Shown: positions 4,779 through 38,679 of the stretch, piece by piece | How positions within the stretch are numbered: position 1 is the first letter of the stretch | Layout: every line of letters begins with the position of its first letter | Source: Candidatus Methylomirabilota bacterium | GTDB lineage: Bacteria; Methylomirabilota; Methylomirabilia; Methylomirabilales; Methylomirabilaceae | Assembly: GCA_016207095.1 (NCBI GenBank) | Contig: JACQQF010000042.1 | Location: forward strand, 1 to 64,000 | Direction of reading: 5' to 3' | DNA length: 64,000 nt | Program-made: the position numbers and the translations under genes | The notes under the pieces: model-generated | Told to the model about the DNA's origin: nothing | The model's database searches: none | Seen by the model: the letters and a program-made list of their open reading frames with translations, nothing else

Positions 4779-5450
4779 ATGGCCAGACGTCGGGTGAAGG
4801 GGATTGCCTTCGATATGTACGGCACCCTGGTGGATGTGGGGGCGGTCGCCGAGACGTGCAATGAGATCGCCCCTGATCCCATCGCCTTCAATGCGCACTG
4901 GCGTGCGAAGCAACTTGAGTACACGTTCCTCCTTAGCCTGATGGGGAGGTACCAGGATTTCTGGCGGGTGTCGGAGCAAGCCTTGGAGTTCACGACACGG
5001 CAATTCGGCCTCGACGTCAGCCCGGAGCAGCGGAGTCGCCTGATGGAGGCCTGGCTTCATCCGAGACCGTACCCCGAGGTGGCGACGGCGCTGTCGCGGC
5101 TGAAGGAGCGCTATGCGCTGGCCGTTCTCTCCAACGGCAGCCCAAAGATGCTGCGGACCGGGTTGGAGCGGACCCGCCTTCTGGAGCACTTCAGATGGGT
5201 GATCAGCGTGGATGCGATCAGACTCTACAAGCCGTCGCCGAGGGTCTATCAGCTTGCGGTGACCAAGATGAAGCTCGGAAAAGAGGAGATCCTCTTTGTC
5301 TCGTCTAACTCTTTCGACGTGGTGGGGGCCAAGAGCTTCGGGTTCAAGGTCTGTTGGATCAACCGGACGGGAGCGCCGCTGGACCCTCTCGGGCCCAAGC
5401 CTGACCTCGTGGTACGAACGATCGACGAGCTCAGCACGGAGCCGGAATAG
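4779..5450 (+). CDS. Haloacid dehalogenase, type II (HAD superfamily)
   Basis: The product is about 223 residues. It starts with GIAFDMYGTLVDV, HAD motif I, in which the first aspartate is the nucleophile. Motif II is LSNGS in the middle, followed by a conserved lysine in RLYKPSP (motif III). SSNSFDVVGAKSFGFKVCWINR is split across the region typical of L-2-haloacid dehalogenases, which hydrolyse the carbon-halogen bond of 2-haloacids. The substrate could equally be a small phosphate ester. ATG 4779 is chosen; a TTG directly before it gives the same frame. The gene follows a REP-like hairpin and has no obvious operon partner downstream. Confidence 0.85.
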   Translation: MARRRVKGIAFDMYGTLVDVGAVAETCNEIAPDPIAFNAHWRAKQLEYTFLLSLMGRYQDFWRVSEQALEFTTRQFGLDVSPEQRSRLMEAWLHPRPYPEVATALSRLKERYALAVLSNGSPKMLRTGLERTRLLEHFRWVISVDAIRLYKPSPRVYQLAVTKMKLGKEEILFVSSNSFDVVGAKSFGFKVCWINRTGAPLDPLGPKPDLVVRTIDELSTEPE

Positions 5451-5987
5451 TGGGACGTCCTCGTTGAAGGTGGCTGCGACGAGAACCCTGCAACCGGGCC
5501 ACTACCCGGAACTGAGATCACCGAAAGATGACACACCCGCTGTCCTGCCGAAGGTCGAGCAGGAGATCACGGCATAACCACACGAGCCGGATTCATTATC
5601 GTCGCCGGCCACCGACCGTCTAGTCCCTGTCGGAACTCCTTTCGGAAGTGTATCGGGACCTTTTCTATTTAACCGGCTGTCTGAAACCCTGCGTGGGTAG
5701 CTCGTGCCGTTCCAACTACTTACGCCAAAAAGGGTGAGGCTGGGGACAGCGATGATTCCTAGCAGGACACCTGTCGGCGATTAGTGCCGTTCCAACTTTT
5801 TGGGCAAAACGACATCTCTTGGCGATTAGCCGAAACGAGTTAGAACGGCATGAGCCACAACAAGGTGGAACGGCACTAGCGGTTCACTTGGGATCCTCCC
5901 CTCTGCCCCGGGCCCGCGCATCTCTGGATCGCCCCATCGGCCGGCAGAGGGGGAGGCTGGTCACGGCATCCGATGAGGAGACAAGGC
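5451..5987. other. Intergenic region of 537 bases
   Basis: No convincing gene is seen between the HAD gene and the DUF4139 gene. The centre, 5704-5880, is a nested pair of interspersed elements described separately. A ribosome binding site (GAGGAGACAAGGC) sits just before ATG 5988. The rest, 5451-5703, shows only short shadow frames. Confidence 0.6.
5704..5880 (+). repeat. R1 element copy A, interrupted by a second R1 copy
   Basis: The outer element starts GTGCCGTTCCAACTACTTACG at 5704 (first 20 bases shown in the family) and ends with GGTGGAACGGCAC before 5880. Its two ends are inverted repeats. Between about 5783 and 5849 lies a second, shorter element with the same start (GTGCCGTTCCAACT) and a related end (AGTTAGAACGGCAT). 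It breaks the outer copy after GGCGATTA. Comparison with the uninterrupted copies at 24618 and 55489 shows where the inner one entered. There is no transposase, so the elements must be moved in trans. Confidence 0.8.
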
Positions 5988-24397: not shown

Positions 24398-24792
24398 GCT
24401 ACCTCCTTACATGCCGCTGCCGCTATGATATCAAAGGGATCACTCGTTTCCAAGAATTTGCATTCAATGGCACGTCTCAGGAAGAAATGCCGTGGCCGGG
24501 GTGGCCGCAGCCCGAGAGAAGATCGTTGACTGCGAACACTGGGCTGCGTTAGCATAGGAGCCTGATCTTGCTAAAGAGACCCAGCGAGTCGAAATGTGGA
24601 CGCATCTAGAGTGGCTAGTGCCATTCCAACTATTTACGCCGAATGGTGAGGCTAGGGCAAGCGATAGTTTTTGGCAGGACACCCGTCGGCGATTAGCTGC
24701 GACAAGTTGGAACGGCACGAGAAGCAGAGTTCCCTCGTCCAGAGCGTATCGTGGTTGTCGAGTGGGACAGGGACTGACGTTGGAAAGCCAGC
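24398..24792. other. Intergenic region of 395 bases before the ubiquitin-like operon
   Basis: It holds an R1 repeat copy (24618-24718) and otherwise shows no gene. The operon promoter should lie here or inside the repeat. I found no clear sigma70 pair. Confidence 0.5.
24618..24718 (+). repeat. R1 element copy B
   Basis: It starts GTGCCATTCCAACTATTTAC and ends AAGTTGGAACGGCAC. It is 101 bp and uninterrupted, and its ends are inverted repeats. It shares GTGAGGCT, GCGATAGTT and GTCGGCGATTAGC with copy A. It lies 74 bases before the start of the AAA ATPase gene. Confidence 0.85.
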
Positions 24793-26571
24793 ATGAAGGC
24801 TGAGGATCAGCAGGAACGAAAGGTTAACGCTGGAGAACCGGACATCCCGCGCTGGGCTCGCGACCTGAAGGAGCGAATCGGCGCCCGGATGACCTCTGTC
24901 TTCATCCTTCACTTCAACGTCGCGGACGAGGTTCGGTTCGGCGATCAGTTTGTCTCCATTGAGAGCTTTCTGGGACGATGGCTCGCGGGCGATGACCGGA
25001 TGGTCGTGTACGACCGCTCGCACGGCCTTCGCTTTTCCCATCACGACACAGAGACGCTCTTTCGGAAGGTCACCGGCTTTACTCAGGAGGCCGAGGCGGC
25101 GAAACGCCGCGCCCTCACGGCCCTGGGCCAGGCCGTCCCGCCGGAGCGTGAGCTGCCGACCCATCCCACCAAGGTGCTCTCGCTCCTCGAGACAGCGATC
25201 CGCTCCGGCTGCTTCGGGACCAGGGAGGGGCCTGCGCTCCTGGTCCTGATCGGCTACGCCGAGACGCTCGTTCCCGATGCCGAACTGTCCTCCATGAGTG
25301 ATGACGATCGGACCAATCTTGTGACCTTCCTCCGCTGGGCCGCTGATCCCGAGATCCTGCGCTCCGGCGTGGCCGTCATTCTCACTGTGGGGAACCTGGC
25401 CGACCTGCACGCGCAACTCCGGGGTCCAGCCTCACGGGTGGAAACGATCGAGATCCCGCTTCCCACGCTCTCGGAGCGAGCAGAGTACATTCAACACCTC
25501 CAGGCGGCGAACGGATTCACGATGGAAATGTCTCCCGAGCGCCTTGCGCATGTCACGGCCGGCCTCTCTCGCCTGCACCTGAAGACCCTCTGCCGGCGCG
25601 CGAGCAGGCGTGATGTGCCCCTGACCTACACGGAGGTCACCGAACGCAAGCGGGAGATCCTCAAACGTGAGCTGCAGGGGATGATCGAGGTGGTGGAACC
25701 CGCTTTGGGACTGAATGTCATCGGCGGGATGGAGGCGGTGAAGACCTACCTGCGCCGCGTGGTTCAGGCGATCAGGGACGGAGATTACAAGCTGGTTCCG
25801 CGAGGCATCACCCTGTTGGGCCCACCCGGCGTGGGGAAGACCGCCCTTGCCGAGGCGCTGGCCAAGGAGTGCGGCTTCAACTTCGTCAAGATCGTCAATC
25901 CACGGGAGAAGTGGGTTGGGCAATCGGAGCGGAATTACTGGCGAATCCTGCAGGCGCTTCGCTCGATGACGCCGGTGGTCGTGTTGGAGGACGAGGCGGA
26001 CCAGAGCGAGCAGATGCGTGACGAGTACAGCGGTGACTCGGGCGTGGGCAATCGGATCAGGCAGATGCGATTCGCCTTCACCGGAGATCCGACGATTCAG
26101 GGACAGATCCTCTGGATCCGGATCAGCAACCGGCCGGACCGCCTGGACGCGGCTGAGAAGCGCTCCGGTCGAAGCAGCGAGCGAATCCCACTGCTGATGC
26201 CGGACGCGGCCGATAAGGCCCGCATCTTTGAGGTCATGCCCACGAAGCACGGGTTCCCCTGCGAGGTCACTGACTTCTCCCCCGCTGTCGAGCACTGCGA
26301 GCGGCGCCACCCGGGGCAGATCTCCGGGGCCGATATCGAGGAGATCACCTTCCGGGCCTATCGCCGGGCTCGATGGCGCGCGGCGCAGGCGATCGCGCTG
26401 GAGGATTACCGCTGGGCGATTGAGGACTTCATCCCATTTCAGGATCGTGAGTCGATTGAGGCGCAGGAGCGGGCCGCCCTCGCCCTCTGTTCCTCCCGGC
26501 AGTTCCTGCCGGAGGGGAAGCGGGACCTCCTGGACGTGCGGGAATCTGGCCCGAGCAGTGGAGCGACGTGA
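24793..26571 (+). CDS. AAA ATPase of the ubiquitin-like operon
   Basis: The product has 592 residues. The first 310 are an N-terminal region without a recognisable motif. An AAA module follows: Walker A GPPGVGKT at about 342-349, Walker B VVVLEDEAD near 395, and SNRPDRLDAAEKRSGRSSER, the FtsH/CDC48-class second-region-of-homology pattern (classically TNRPDxLDxALxRPGRFD), then a C-terminal helical lid. Such ATPases unfold or remodel proteins. No protease or membrane segment is present. It is the first gene of a five-gene operon: the next start is three bases after its stop. The partners suggest it acts on proteins marked or unmarked by the beta-grasp protein, but this is inference. Confidence 0.85.
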   Translation: MKAEDQQERKVNAGEPDIPRWARDLKERIGARMTSVFILHFNVADEVRFGDQFVSIESFLGRWLAGDDRMVVYDRSHGLRFSHHDTETLFRKVTGFTQEAEAAKRRALTALGQAVPPERELPTHPTKVLSLLETAIRSGCFGTREGPALLVLIGYAETLVPDAELSSMSDDDRTNLVTFLRWAADPEILRSGVAVILTVGNLADLHAQLRGPASRVETIEIPLPTLSERAEYIQHLQAANGFTMEMSPERLAHVTAGLSRLHLKTLCRRASRRDVPLTYTEVTERKREILKRELQGMIEVVEPALGLNVIGGMEAVKTYLRRVVQAIRDGDYKLVPRGITLLGPPGVGKTALAEALAKECGFNFVKIVNPREKWVGQSERNYWRILQALRSMTPVVVLEDEADQSEQMRDEYSGDSGVGNRIRQMRFAFTGDPTIQGQILWIRISNRPDRLDAAEKRSGRSSERIPLLMPDAADKARIFEVMPTKHGFPCEVTDFSPAVEHCERRHPGQISGADIEEITFRAYRRARWRAAQAIALEDYRWAIEDFIPFQDRESIEAQERAALALCSSRQFLPEGKRDLLDVRESGPSSGAT

Positions 26572-26574
26572 GGC

Positions 26575-27378
26575 ATGTCCGATCCCGAAGAGACCATAGA
26601 GATCAAGGGAAAGTCCGTCCGCCTCTTTCGGTCGTCCTCCGACGACGCCCCCACAATCGATCGGCAGGTCAGCCTTCGCGATTTCCTACTGGAGATCAGC
26701 GCCTTCGCGCCTCGACGGTTCCTGGAACACATCCCCTTGCTGCCGCCGGGCACCCGATGGGCCATCGTCCGGGGACCTTCTCTGATCATCACCGTCGAGC
26801 ACCCGCCCCAGGCGCGCCTGGTCAGTTGGAGTGAGAAGGCCCTGGACGAGCCGGGCAACTACCGCCGCACCCGACTGGCCCTCCCCTACACGGTGTACCT
26901 GCTGCTCTTCCACCACGGCTCCTTTGAGGAAATGCGGCTCTTCTACAGAAACGCGCCATTGGCCTCGGAGGAAGACGCTTTGTGTATGCCCAATCTCTGG
27001 AACATCTCGGCCAGTGAAAGCCCGTTGGCCAAGTGCCGGGTGTGCCTTCGGGGCCGCCCGGTCTTCGATGACCTGACGGTGGCCGGCCAGGCCCAGGCTG
27101 CCATCGAGTTCTTCTGGGGCGCCGGGTTCAACCTGGACATCGAAAGCAACTGCTTCCGCCGTGCCGCCACGCTGGACGGCCGCATCGCGACGCTTGAGGC
27201 CTGGGAGACGGCCACTATAGCCGACCCCCTTTTTCCGCTTGCGGTCCCATGGGAGGAGGCCGGGCTGAGCCTTCGCAAGGCCGGCGAACACCTGCTGGAT
27301 TGGCGGGGCGCGGCGCGCCCTCTAGAGGACACGTCAGATCTCGCCGATCTCCTCTATCGGTTGAGAGATCTCACCTGA
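26575..27378 (+). CDS. E2-like / PRTRC-protein-B-like protein
   Basis: The product has 267 residues. The central strands (RWAIVRGPSLIITVEHPP ... LVSWSE) followed by RLALPYTVYLLLFHHG, LFYRNAPLASEEDALCMPNL and WNISASES resemble the predicted prokaryotic E2 family D/PRTRC system protein B fold. Cysteines 137 (LCMPNL), 154 and 157 (CRVC) are candidates for thioester or metal chemistry; I cannot tell which, if any, is catalytic. It is wedged between the AAA and JAB genes, with ATGA overlap to the latter. Assignment rests mainly on this context, and a non-enzymatic adaptor is possible. Confidence 0.6.
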   Translation: MSDPEETIEIKGKSVRLFRSSSDDAPTIDRQVSLRDFLLEISAFAPRRFLEHIPLLPPGTRWAIVRGPSLIITVEHPPQARLVSWSEKALDEPGNYRRTRLALPYTVYLLLFHHGSFEEMRLFYRNAPLASEEDALCMPNLWNISASESPLAKCRVCLRGRPVFDDLTVAGQAQAAIEFFWGAGFNLDIESNCFRRAATLDGRIATLEAWETATIADPLFPLAVPWEEAGLSLRKAGEHLLDWRGAARPLEDTSDLADLLYRLRDLT

Positions 27379-28049
27379 TGTTCCCGGTCTATTTAAAAGA
27401 GGACCACTTCGAGGAGCCGGATGATCCGATTTACTATCTGGTGACGCGCGACGGCCTGTTCCAGGTGAAGCGGAATCCTCTGTTCCACGCCAGGACAAAG
27501 GTCCGGGGCTTGAGCTGGCTGATGTCGGAACACGAGGCGGCGCGCCTACAACTCCCCCCCCTTTCTGGCGCTATCCTTGTCGAGATCGTGGCCTTCTTCC
27601 GGGAGGTCTTTCAAGCCCATCGCGCGGAAGCGGTGGTCCTGTTGTACTTCAATCAACAAGAGGGGCGCTACGAGCTGAAGATCCCGAAGCAACAGGTGGC
27701 GGGCGGGCACTGCAGCTACGAGATCGGCCCGACCCCAGCCGGATGGCTGCGAGTGGGCACGATTCACAGCCACGCCTCGGCCGATGCGTTTCATTCCGAG
27801 CTGGACGACGAGGACGAGCGGCATGACGACGGCCTGCATATGACCATCGGCAATCTCGATGGTGAGGCGAGCGTGGTCTGCTCCCTTGTCGTTGACGGGC
27901 GTCGCTTCACCCTCAAGCCGTCCGAGGTTTTCGATGGCGAACTCCTGGACTCCACGGGCGTGAGGCTCCCCAAGGGGTCGCTGCAGGTCGTGGACCTCGA
28001 GACCGTCCCTCGTGACAGCGATGCCGAGGGGCGCCCATCGTCCGTCTGA
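27378..28049 (+). CDS. JAB/JAMM-domain isopeptidase-like protein (PRTRC-A-like)
   Basis: The product has 223 residues. GTIHSHASADAFHSELDDED has the exact JAMM pattern H-x-H-x7-S-x2-D (histidines 130 and 132, serine 140, aspartate 143). The upstream glutamate could be residue 84 (AEAVVLLYF). JAMM enzymes are zinc proteases that remove ubiquitin-like tags or process their C-termini. The N-terminal 60 residues are family-specific. ATG 27378 is chosen because it overlaps the E2-like stop; upstream in-frame codons lie in that gene. The product probably cleaves the operon's beta-grasp protein. Confidence 0.85.
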   Translation: MFPVYLKEDHFEEPDDPIYYLVTRDGLFQVKRNPLFHARTKVRGLSWLMSEHEAARLQLPPLSGAILVEIVAFFREVFQAHRAEAVVLLYFNQQEGRYELKIPKQQVAGGHCSYEIGPTPAGWLRVGTIHSHASADAFHSELDDEDERHDDGLHMTIGNLDGEASVVCSLVVDGRRFTLKPSEVFDGELLDSTGVRLPKGSLQVVDLETVPRDSDAEGRPSSV

Positions 28050-28064
28050 GGGGATCGCGACGCG

Positions 28065-28778
28065 ATGCCTGGCAGGATCGACATTAAACTGATCGGGATC
28101 GGCGGGATCGGCTGCGCTTTAGCGCCGTTCCTGGCCCGATACCTCCAATCGGAGCGACAGCTCACAGGAGAAGAGGTTCGCATTACCCTGGTGGATGGCG
28201 ACGCCTTTGAGAGCAAGAACGCTGCCCGCCAGAGTTTCGAGTCCATCGGAAACAAAGCCAAGGTGAAAGCGTCCGAGCTGGCTCTGGGCTTCCCTGACCT
28301 CTCTTTCCGCGCCATTCCGGAATTCGTCACGGCCGCGAACCTGTCCGACTTGGTGAAGGCCGGCGACCTAGTCTTCCTCGCGGTGGACAATCACGCCACC
28401 CGGCGTGCGGTCAGCCGCCGCTGCGAGGAGCTGTCCGAGGTGGTTTTGATCTCGGGGGGCAATGACTTCACCGATGGCAATGTTCAGATCTATGTCCGCC
28501 AGGGTGACCGGGATATCACCTTGCCCCTGACCCGCTTCCACCCGGAGATCGCTGATCCGAAAGACAAATCGCCCGCGGAGATGTCGTGCGAGGAGCTGGC
28601 GGCAGATGCGGCGCCCCAGCTCCTTTTCACGAACCTCGGCGTGGCCTGCGCGATGCTGAACGCCTTTTACGCCTGGCGGTCGGGGCGGCTCCGCTATGGC
28701 GAGGTCTACGTGGATATCGTGGAGGGGCGAGCGCAACCCGTCGCCCGCGCTCCTCGTGACGGAGAGAACGACTTATGA
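28065..28778 (+). CDS. E1-like ThiF/PRTRC-ThiF adenylyltransferase
   Basis: The product has 237 residues. GIGGIG at 11-16 is the Rossmann nucleotide loop, VDGDAFESKNAARQ at 43-56 holds the aspartate, asparagine and arginine that bind ATP, and NKAKVKA carries the conserved lysine. DLVFLAVDNHATRRAV follows. Cysteine 175 (AEMSCEELAAD) lies where PRTRC-type ThiF proteins have a conserved SCEEL-like motif and is the candidate thioester cysteine. It would adenylate the C-terminus of the beta-grasp protein encoded by the next gene. The two genes overlap by four bases. Confidence 0.88.
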   Translation: MPGRIDIKLIGIGGIGCALAPFLARYLQSERQLTGEEVRITLVDGDAFESKNAARQSFESIGNKAKVKASELALGFPDLSFRAIPEFVTAANLSDLVKAGDLVFLAVDNHATRRAVSRRCEELSEVVLISGGNDFTDGNVQIYVRQGDRDITLPLTRFHPEIADPKDKSPAEMSCEELAADAAPQLLFTNLGVACAMLNAFYAWRSGRLRYGEVYVDIVEGRAQPVARAPRDGENDL

Positions 28779-29047
28779 GCGACGCTCAAGTGAAGGGAAC
28801 CACCAGGACAAAGGTGGCAGGCCAGTCCAAGACCCAGAACCAGGTCCGGGTCCTGTATGGCGTGCATTCGTTGGAGGCTGATCTCGCCGGCCGGACGGTG
28901 GCCGACGTCCGCCAGGCCCTCCGCCAAGCCCTCAATATCAGCCCGCAGGCGGTGGCCGTGGTGGACGGCCGCGAGGTGGAAGAGGGCGTCATCCTGTTGG
29001 CCGGGCAGCAACTGGAGTTCGTCAGACTCGCCGGCGAGAAGGGCTGA
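28775..29047 (+). CDS. Ubiquitin-like beta-grasp protein
   Basis: The product has 90 residues. About 22 flexible residues are followed by VRVLYGVHSLEADLAGRTVA, RQALRQALNISPQAVAVVDG and REVEEGVILLAGQQLEFVRL, the strand-helix-strand order of a ThiS/MoaD/ubiquitin fold. It ends in LAGEKG with a C-terminal glycine, so it could be activated directly without trimming, although it lacks the usual GG. It resembles PRTRC system protein C. ATG 28775 overlaps the E1-like stop. This is the presumed modifier of the operon. Confidence 0.8.
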   Translation: MSDAQVKGTTRTKVAGQSKTQNQVRVLYGVHSLEADLAGRTVADVRQALRQALNISPQAVAVVDGREVEEGVILLAGQQLEFVRLAGEKG

Positions 29048-37508: not shown

Positions 37509-37916
37509 ATGAAAGATCAACCGGAAGAGAAGCTCTTTTCGATGGGCCAGTGGCTGCTCATCACGATTGTCTTCTCCGTATATGCCATCATTCTCCTCTC
37601 GCTGGATCCGGAATGGGTCCTGTGGGCCGGGTCGATGAGCGCGGGTTCTCTCTACGTCCCGGATCCGCCTCCGCCTCTCTTTGACGATCCGCGGAAAGCC
37701 CTTCAGATAGCGTCTAATTTATGTCTCGGTCTCGTAGGGCTCCTTGGTTTGGTGTGCCTCGTGGGCTTCTTGGGCGAGGTGAAGTTCGGGTGGCGGTCTA
37801 GGTTGAAGGCTCGATGGGCGGAGTGGAGGTCTCAGAGCGTGCGCGGAGGCGCAGAACTCGGAGACATCGGAGCAGAGGGCCATTTCCAGGAAGTTGATCG
37901 CGATCCGGGGCGGTGA
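37509..37916 (+). CDS. Two-helix membrane protein of unknown function
   Basis: The product has 135 residues. Two hydrophobic segments, WLLITIVFSVYAIILLSL near 16-33 and NLCLGLVGLLGLVCLVGFLG near 70-89, flank a proline-rich loop (YVPDPPPPLFDDP). GAGAGGAGGGG lies before ATG 37509. The Crp/Fnr-type operator and the regulator gene two bases downstream suggest a common unit. I do not recognise its family. Confidence 0.65.
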   Translation: MKDQPEEKLFSMGQWLLITIVFSVYAIILLSLDPEWVLWAGSMSAGSLYVPDPPPPLFDDPRKALQIASNLCLGLVGLLGLVCLVGFLGEVKFGWRSRLKARWAEWRSQSVRGGAELGDIGAEGHFQEVDRDPGR

Positions 37917-37917
37917 T

Positions 37918-38679
37918 ATGATGAAATTACAGGGCCGGGTCCTCTCGGGCCTCCGGGAGGAGCGTGACAGTGTGTCGGTGGCCTACGTGACAGCTACTGG
38001 GTTGTTCGAGGGGGTTTCGGAAGAAGAAGGCCGGAGGATCGCTCGCGTTTGCTTCGATAGGGCCCAACCGAAGGGCACAACAATATTCTCGGAGGGTGAC
38101 CCGAGTGATTCGCTCTATGTCGTCAAGCAGGGGCTTGTGAAGCTCACGTCGATCTCTGAGAAGGGAACGGAGACCATTCTCGATTTCCTCAAGCCAGGGG
38201 AGATTTTCGGGGAGCTCCTCCTCACCGAGAAGGTGAGAGCTTTCACGGCAACCGCGAACGAAGATACCGTCGTGACTGCCGTGCCGCAGGAGCGCTTCCT
38301 GGAGCTATTGTCACTGGTCCCCACCATCAGCCGGAATTTCATCAGGATCCTGTCGAAACGATTGGTGAAGGTGGGAAAGGGGGTGGCCGATTCCAGTCAT
38401 TCCTGGTCCTACCACAGACTCGCCAGGACGCTTCTTTATCTTGGCGAAAAGTACGGCGAGGAGACTCCTGCTGGCACCTTAATCAGATTGCGCCTGACTC
38501 ATGAAGATCTGGCAAATCTGATCGGGGCCACCCGGGAGACCGTCACAACCCAGCTCAACAAGTTCGAAAGGATGGGGCTGCTGAACCGGCGGGGCCGGAG
38601 TCTCATTATCATTCGACACCGCCTCAGCGAATTCATCAGCTCTGAGGAACTGCGATTGAGCAAGTCCCAAGTTGAATGA
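37918..38679 (+). CDS. Crp/Fnr family transcriptional regulator
   Basis: The product has 253 residues from ATG 37918, or 252 from the adjacent ATG 37921. The cyclic-nucleotide-type sensor domain at about 30-150 includes GTTIFSEGDPSDSLYVVKQG and KPGEIFGELLL. The C-terminal winged helix has LTHEDLANLIGATRETVTTQ. The recognition helix keeps the R-E pair that in Crp contacts TGTGA. There is no N-terminal FNR cysteine cluster (only C44 is near), so it is probably not an iron-sulfur oxygen sensor; the ligand is unknown. The nearby TGTGA-N6-TCACG sites are its likely targets. Confidence 0.9.
   Translation: MMKLQGRVLSGLREERDSVSVAYVTATGLFEGVSEEEGRRIARVCFDRAQPKGTTIFSEGDPSDSLYVVKQGLVKLTSISEKGTETILDFLKPGEIFGELLLTEKVRAFTATANEDTVVTAVPQERFLELLSLVPTISRNFIRILSKRLVKVGKGVADSSHSWSYHRLARTLLYLGEKYGEETPAGTLIRLRLTHEDLANLIGATRETVTTQLNKFERMGLLNRRGRSLIIIRHRLSEFISSEELRLSKSQVE

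Follow-up and report, generated by a model that had tools for sequence, protein, structure and literature searches.

The stretch of DNA analysed here, a window of 64,000 nt from an NC10 (Methylomirabilota) genome (G000), carries at 24793-29047 a cassette of five genes, all on the + strand, which code for an AAA ATPase (AAA), an E2-like protein (E2), a JAMM/JAB metalloprotease (JAMM or JAB), an E1/ThiF-like adenylating enzyme (E1) and a ubiquitin-like beta-grasp protein (UBL). Judged from sequence and predicted structure, the cassette probably encodes a reversible ubiquitin-like (Ubl) conjugation system of the Prok-E2_D/PRTRC-like kind, near type 6d of Iyer, Burroughs and Aravind 2006, in a lineage that regularly pairs it with a Cdc48/p97-type AAA unfoldase. 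The joint presence or absence of motor and tagging genes in relatives suggests a bacterial equivalent of the ubiquitin-Cdc48 pathway. Bacterial Ubl operons are already known; the new aspect is the Cdc48-type AAA as a regular partner, tied by co-occurrence to E1, E2, JAMM and UBL, with the genes forming an operon in NC10 and lying scattered in Deltaproteobacteria. No description of an AAA-linked cassette of this kind was found in the literature searched, the coverage of which was partial, and a prior mention is possible. A preliminary description of the window had proposed that the cassette links conjugation or deconjugation to protein unfolding, and the co-occurrence of the AAA with the Ubl genes supports that proposal. 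Its gene assignments stand, and none of the outcomes that it had named as refuting was observed.

Joint occurrence of the ATPase and the tagging genes

In NC10, the AAA and the tagging genes generally occur together or are missing together. Amongst 95 Methylomirabilota genomes searched (E<=1e-20 for E1 and for E2, E<=1e-60 for the AAA), E1 was detected in 16, the AAA in 18 and E2 in 17. The AAA is found in all 16 E1-bearing genomes and E2 in 15 of them, the sole E1 genome without E2 (G027) being 9% contaminated. Within the window's genus all three parts are present in three of the 15 genomes and none in the other 12, and in family f5 all three are present in three of seven genomes and none in four. 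In 14/16 genomes the AAA gene, complete or truncated by the contig end, immediately precedes E2 or JAB on the contig that carries E1, and in G018 and G031 the AAA and E1 genes are on separate contigs, near contig ends. All five genes follow the window's order in six of the 16 (G000, G011, G002, G029, G020 and G016). Other arrangements include a UBL gene elsewhere in two f5 genomes and a cassette without E2 in four f4 and two f3 genomes, five of which six have an E2 gene at another site, within an E2-UBL-E2 cluster in the f3 pair. A second AAA gene was also observed, convergent beside the UBL gene in four f4 loci (L060, L061, L065 and L067; PAN-like in the two that were scanned) and one gene away from UBL in the f3 locus L059.

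The gene set recurs in relatives beyond NC10 as well. At four Deltaproteobacteria loci JAB and E1 are the only parts found at the locus, and a fifth (L047) has only a partial E1; in all three Deltaproteobacteria genomes searched, the same AAA (E ~1e-217) and a UBL lie away from the JAB-E1 pair. E2 was looked for in two of the three, and in two of the three the AAA, E2 and UBL genes fall within ~7.5 kb, not as one operon. Since these genomes keep the AAA though the genes are scattered, the AAA appears to be functionally linked to the system beyond operon hitch-hiking. A KSB1 genome (L051/L106) carries beside its UBL-E2-JAB-E1 genes a different AAA, of proteasomal type with proteasomal OB domains, and a search of 82 genomes of that phylum detected E1 in one, the already known one. 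The same KSB1 locus encodes in addition a further ThiF, a further JAB (PF01398) and another, weak AAA, which makes it a larger Ubl-AAA locus than the window's.

The E2-JAB-E1-UBL order is shared by all seven viral loci found in IMG/VR (L070-L076) and by a Patescibacteria locus (L049), with E1s that are 39-50% identical to the window's E1. These cassettes differ from the window's in their large E2 proteins, the E2 domains lying inside proteins of 342-880 residues (848-880 residues in L070-L074 and L076). A fusion of AAA and E2 in the ~860-residue viral proteins was considered and rejected: in the two that were scanned, Prok-E2_D matches weakly towards the N-terminus and an AAA is lacking. A second ThiF gene lies downstream in 6/7 viral loci, and further downstream in L070-L074 and L076 are large genes which by eye resemble parts of RNA polymerase beta-prime. 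Omnitrophota and Buchananbacteria loci also carry the core, and the Parcubacteria locus L050 carries E2-JAB-E1 twice. Just upstream of the E2-JAB-E1-UBL cassette of the Omnitrophota locus L048, a reverse transcriptase gene was noticed at 4958-5830 (RVT_1 2.5e-21).

In the E1 tree, NC10 sequences are grouped by family and stand together at 93/94, with Deltaproteobacteria next at 85/88, which suggests that the system has long been resident in NC10, with loss. The 28 sequences of the window's type are split at 100/99 from the E1s of PRTRC and of Bacillota/Rubrobacter plasmids and phages, a split that carries a long-branch warning. The closest named relatives of the window's E1 come from metagenome-assembled genomes (MAGs) of Candidatus Methylomirabilis oxygeniifera (88% identity) and Candidatus Methylomirabilota (85%). 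A close E1 in plasmid or named-phage records was sought and rejected, the nine and two records matched reaching at best 33.3% and 27.9% identity.

Conserved residues and predicted folds of the five proteins

The five genes (Table 1) are separated by +3, -1, +15 and -4 bp, in agreement with the preliminary description, which had them on one strand and either overlapping or no more than 15 bases apart. For the JAMM gene the mechanically called open reading frame (ORF) opens upstream at 27249, and the start was taken at 27378.

Table 1. Products of the cassette genes, their coordinates in the window and the evidence for each assignment
Product	Coordinates	Strand	Evidence
Cdc48/p97-class AAA ATPase, 592 residues	24793..26571	+	PF00004 1.2e-20; motifs; VCP-like ATPase/p97 as best solved relatives
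E2-like protein, 267 residues, candidate catalytic Cys157	26575..27378	+	invariant Cys; hhalign to PRTRC_B; AlphaFold2 (AF2) model
JAMM/JAB metalloprotease, 223 residues, PRTRC_A-like N-terminal part	27378..28049	+	Prok-JAB 3.7e-5; PRTRC_A 1.2e-9; conserved residues
Single-domain E1/ThiF-like adenylating enzyme, 237 residues	28065..28778	+	ThiF 6.2e-19; PRTRC_ThiF 4.5e-19; conserved residues
Ubiquitin-like beta-grasp protein (UBL), 90 residues	28775..29047	+	AF2 model; Foldseek to ubiquitin family; GxKG

The ATPase had initially been called FtsH/CDC48-class. The CDC48/p97 part of that label is upheld by the NCBIfam match to CDC48 (TIGR01243, 3.5e-26) and by the closest solved structures, a VCP-like ATPase and p97, whereas the FtsH part (2.1e-16) is not. 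A C-terminal module holds Walker A (G343-T350), W374, Walker B (D400-E401), N446 and R457/R460; both Walker motifs, the KWVG loop (W374), N446 and R457/R460 are invariant across six AAA orthologues, and KWVG and the other motifs align with those of the VCP-like ATPase. We presume, from p97 anatomy, that the names pore loop (W374) and Arg finger apply to these residues. Thus the protein shares Walker A/B, the pore Trp and the Arg fingers with Cdc48/p97 and the archaeal VCP-like ATPase, but it differs in having one Walker A in total, in place of CDC48's two nucleotide-binding modules, and in scoring far below the TIGR01243 cut-off (91.7 vs 802.65 bits). The N-terminal half, which is without Walker A, may be a degenerate first AAA module, since some family matches already start at residues 205-217, ahead of the active module.

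In the E1, the GIGGIG loop and the candidate Cys175 of the preliminary description were both found, the loop at residues 11-16. Identical in all 34 aligned E1s are G11, G13, G14, D44, D46, R55, K64, D108, N109, H110, R113 and Cys175, and because Cys175 is the only one of the protein's four cysteines to be invariant among 22 E1s, it is a candidate for the thioester site. The best NCBIfam match is PRTRC_ThiF, under its cut-off (68.7 vs 144.75 bits). The window's genome contains a further ThiF-like stretch (G000:C65:8410-8928) in a frame of 447 residues, 30% identical to the window's E1.

The metalloprotease carries the exact JAMM motif at the positions reported earlier, and Glu84, His130, His132, Ser140 and Asp143 are present in 33/33 aligned relatives. 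The pattern HxHx7SxxD, starting at H130, occurs in one of the 345 window ORFs of at least 60 residues. Its Prok-JAB match (24.0 bits) lies just below the 25-bit cut-off. PRTRC_A, its sole NCBIfam match, aligns to residues 20-177 and is under its own cut-off (38.0 vs 101.8 bits).

Pfam, NCBIfam and PADLOC returned nothing convincing for the UBL, and PHROGs gave a single weak match of unknown function (6.4e-4); the fold emerges from the AF2 model (pLDDT 76.9, with residues ~1-20 at the N-terminus of low confidence). The best Foldseek match of the model is ubiquitin (prob 1.00, E 5e-4, TMt 0.61), followed by a molybdopterin-synthase subunit, NEDD8, Urm1 and others, with prob 1.00 but E >1e-3. Together with the C-terminal GEKG (G87-x-K89-G90), this bears out the earlier view of a 90-residue beta-grasp protein ending in glycine. 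GxKG is present in all 32 relatives' UBLs with a complete end (one more, cut by a contig end, was left out), of which 12 stop at GxKG, 19 run 1-23 residues further and one is fused to a whole protein. In this last case (genome G018, C95, L102 528-1196) the frame continues from the UBL through GEKG to a domain that shares 60% identity over 100 residues with a 112-residue protein of the window's genome, where it is a separate gene beside a second E2; the fusion rests on one MAG and may be an assembly error. Ubiquitin precursors, too, occur fused to ribosomal proteins, and the tailed and fused UBLs resemble them by analogy. As relatives' UBLs are tailed or fused after GxKG, the JAMM gains a plausible job in precursor processing; the window's UBL already ends at glycine and would therefore need no trimming. 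Its lysines (7, 13, 19 and 89) sit in the low-confidence start and in the tail, which makes UBL chains through the folded core unlikely on this model.

Among the Ubl, JAB, E1 and E2-like assignments, that of E2 is the weakest; the 267-residue protein is likely E2-like, its E2 fold being not proved. Taken alone it gave no convincing match in Pfam, NCBIfam or PADLOC, and no Prok-E2_D (PF14460) match in the Pfam scan. Cys157, preceded by N140-L-W-N143, is invariant in two alignments (14/14 and 19/19 sequences) spanning NC10, KSB1, Omnitrophota, Patescibacteria and viral contigs. An automatic alignment based on a hidden Markov model places it in 36/39, the exceptions L051, L073 and L075 carrying Cys there in the 19-sequence alignment. 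By hhalign the protein aligns to two PRTRC B proteins (E 9.4e-5, probability 58.9), Cys facing Cys. The AF2 model (pLDDT 81.9, pTM 0.71) shows a series of beta-strands and, after it, helices; six of its best 50 Foldseek rows are E2-containing Protein Data Bank (PDB) entries, all weak matches (prob 0.13-0.30, TMt 0.26-0.41). Against viral models five proteins were matched at E<=1e-3 (best E 2.4e-11), four of them named as uncharacterised phage proteins.

A second E2-family gene of the window's genome (G000:C7:26607-27464, that is L138 8608-9465) adjoins genes for an alpha/beta hydrolase, the 112-residue protein, a 459-residue protein and a TPR protein. An extra or alternative single E2 was found in eight genomes, and an E2-E2 pair with UBL between in three. 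Several E2s per E1 are typical of true conjugation systems, a pattern that may bear on the window's system. The 112-residue family may belong to the Ubl system, because one member lies next to the E2-UBL-E2 cluster of G033 (49% identity) and another is fused to the UBL in G018. The case for the 459-residue protein as a further part was weakened on inspection, as it occurs in 12/16 E1 genomes and both extra AAA genomes, and also in six genomes with neither (20/95).

Proposed pathway and competing explanations

In the pathway that we propose, E1 would adenylate the C-terminal glycine of the UBL and load the UBL on Cys175, from which it would pass to Cys157 of E2, and E2 would join it to substrate amines. 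The AAA would draw tagged proteins through its pore by means of the W374 loop, extracting them from complexes or unfolding them, and the JAMM would remove the UBL and also cut tailed or fused UBL precursors after GxKG. The likely outcome is that tagged proteins would be segregated or remodelled, or passed on to a housekeeping protease. Coupling to a proteasome was rejected, since PF00227 picks out a single protein in the window's genome, HslV (278.1 bits against 137), with HslU (680.8 bits against 362.45) beside it, and for the same reason segregase-type remodelling of UBL-tagged proteins is favoured over protease hand-over, with degradation by a housekeeping protease and defence as possible alternatives. 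The cassette may thus offer a testable minimal model for coupling ubiquitin-like tagging to unfolding, in a genome with HslV as its sole proteasome-family protein. A wider reading is possible, which we put forward tentatively: a bacterial pathway like that of ubiquitin and Cdc48, complete but lacking a 20S proteasome, in which one E1, one JAMM and one UBL would serve two E2s and a dedicated AAA segregase would unfold tagged proteins, with tailed or fused UBL precursors in some relatives, and which would predate or parallel the eukaryotic pathway, its core being present also in putative large phages.

Several observations weigh against a conjugation system with the AAA as regular partner. The counts behind the joint presence (Fisher p 2.8e-16 for the 95 NC10 genomes, 0.002 for the genus and 0.029 for f5) are uncorrected for phylogeny. 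Two NC10 genomes, G033 and G019 (68% and 70% complete), have the AAA and E2 with no E1 detected, and in G019 the AAA-E2-JAB genes are followed by genes other than E1 before the contig end. No UBL was found on searching G032 (f5) or the Parcubacteria genome of locus L050 (G101). No such AAA is seen within the available flanks of any of the seven viral loci, a pattern search of viral contigs with the window's AAA gave four matches, none of them a relative, and at E<=1e-20 the AAA is missing from six core-bearing bacterial genomes (including KSB1, Omnitrophota and two Patescibacteria); the AAA is therefore not needed by every such system. As for E2, its model has no Foldseek PDB match at E<=1e-3, and no His occurs in the invariant or 90% columns of 19 E2s, so that the conserved His which type 6d has C-terminal to the Cys is absent. 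Prok-E2_D is touched by four of 12 related E2s, all under the 25-bit cut-off (L049 9.8e-5, L070 0.0068, L050 0.0096 and L071 0.014), which weakens the assignment. The initial E2-like call holds as likely, less firmly than the other assignments: the invariant Cys157 and the profile link to PRTRC_B speak for it, while the model and the Prok-E2_D scores weaken it.

The viral, Patescibacteria and Omnitrophota loci without the AAA, and the two NC10 genomes with AAA and E2 and no detected E1, would fit an AAA that is a genetic partner only, with a role of its own such as remodelling of an E1/E2/JAB complex or action on another substrate class, the conjugates not being its substrates. We regard this as unlikely, given its presence in every E1-bearing NC10 genome and in the three Deltaproteobacteria with scattered genes, and given that the KSB1 cassette is adjoined by a different AAA.

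Anti-phage defence, after the manner of Bil, Bub and CBASS Cap2/Cap3, is a rather improbable role for the cassette. Known bacterial E1/E2/JAB operons do defend, the cassette is patchy within the genus (3/15), its core is on viral contigs, and PADLOC matched the E1 (E1-E2, 8.3e-6), the AAA (IetA, 3.6e-11) and a TIR-effector-like ORF at 37894-38676 (7e-7), 9 kb from the cassette. Against this, the genes named around the cassette have housekeeping functions, NC10 sequences cluster by family in the E1 tree, and PADLOC matched three of ten further window ORFs, namely the TIR-like one, an LmuB-like one (2.8e-6) and an ABC transporter, mad3 (8e-30, probably generic). None of the matches near the cassette clearly indicates a defence island, and phage defence is not favoured over another role by these findings.

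A sulfur-carrier pathway of the ThiS/MoaD type, in which E1 and UBL would make a thiocarboxylate and the JAB would trim the UBL, is very unlikely: the E1 is a single-domain ThiF protein and the UBL resembles molybdopterin-synthase subunit and Urm1 folds and, weakly by sequence, SAMP2 (E 0.21), but an E2-like protein with an invariant Cys and an AAA unfoldase are present, the UBL ends in KG and not GG, and no sulfur, Mo or thiamine gene lies inside the cassette (a TenA/PqqC-like gene follows it).

Nearest described systems and genomic setting

PRTRC cassettes (ParB, E, C, F, B, A and ThiF, as in Aromatoleum plasmid 1 and Methylomonas pUP202) are the nearest named relatives of the window's AAA-linked cassette. 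They share with it the order E2(B)-JAB(A)-E1(ThiF), the alignment of E2 to B with Cys opposite Cys, and a similar UBL end, two PRTRC C proteins ending in TKG and the window's UBL in KG. They differ in that the window's cassette has an AAA, its UBL comes last whereas the PRTRC one (C) is upstream, hhalign of the two is weak (E 0.098, prob 0.6), the neighbours are housekeeping genes and the E1 clade is separate. At the locus, to which the search was confined, no ParB-family, PRTRC E or PRTRC F gene occurs in the cassette, which starts with the AAA instead, as the preliminary description had stated. Membership in PRTRC was rejected, the JAB and E1 scores being far below the cut-offs and the gene set different.

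The nearest described operon class is type 6d, with two of its listed features unmatched. In the portion of that text available, a Ub-like protein, JAB, E1 and a Cys-bearing E2-like protein are described, as found together in the window, but its alpha-helical partner protein has no counterpart in the cassette (at the locus), and its absolutely conserved His after the E2 Cys is unmatched in E2s of the window's type (PMC1779556). Its JAB has an N-terminal alpha+beta domain with a conserved Arg and Trp (PMC1779556); the JAMM also has an N-terminal part, in which a candidate Trp, W47, is present in 17/33 and a candidate Arg, R39, in 8/33 relatives. The term 'AAA' has 0 occurrences in the portion available, where links of bacterial Ubl operons to ATP-dependent proteolytic machines are called less clear (PMC1779556).

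The window's E1 is a single ThiF domain of 237 residues with a separate E2 gene, neither the E1-E2 fusion nor the two-part E1 of the Bil/CBASS type. Bub and CBASS Cap2-Cap3 follow the bacterial E1-E2-Ubl-JAB logic. BilABCD has the same logic; as far as the accessible part of the source goes, BilD has an inactive and an active adenylation domain and BilA two Ubl domains, whereas the window has a single-domain E1, a single Ubl and an AAA (PMC11354881).

In a family scan of the window ORFs, the first named gene to the left of the cassette is AP_endonuc_2 and the first to its right TENA_THI-4, and the named genes around it comprise FtsEX, a LON domain, endonuclease IV, a TenA-like protein, radical SAM and ABC. 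The endonuclease IV and radical SAM flanks are on one contig in six of the 12 cassette-free genus mates, ~2-15 kb apart with other content between, and the interval occupied by the cassette is therefore variable. A dispersed repeat of ~108 bp (24613-24724) ends ~70 bp upstream of the AAA start. Its sequence can form an imperfect palindromic fold (DNA fold z -2.8), and a search for inverted pairs of it reported none. At least ~20 further whole or partial copies are present in the window's own genome and many in G002 and G011, with a single weak copy each in G014 and G007.

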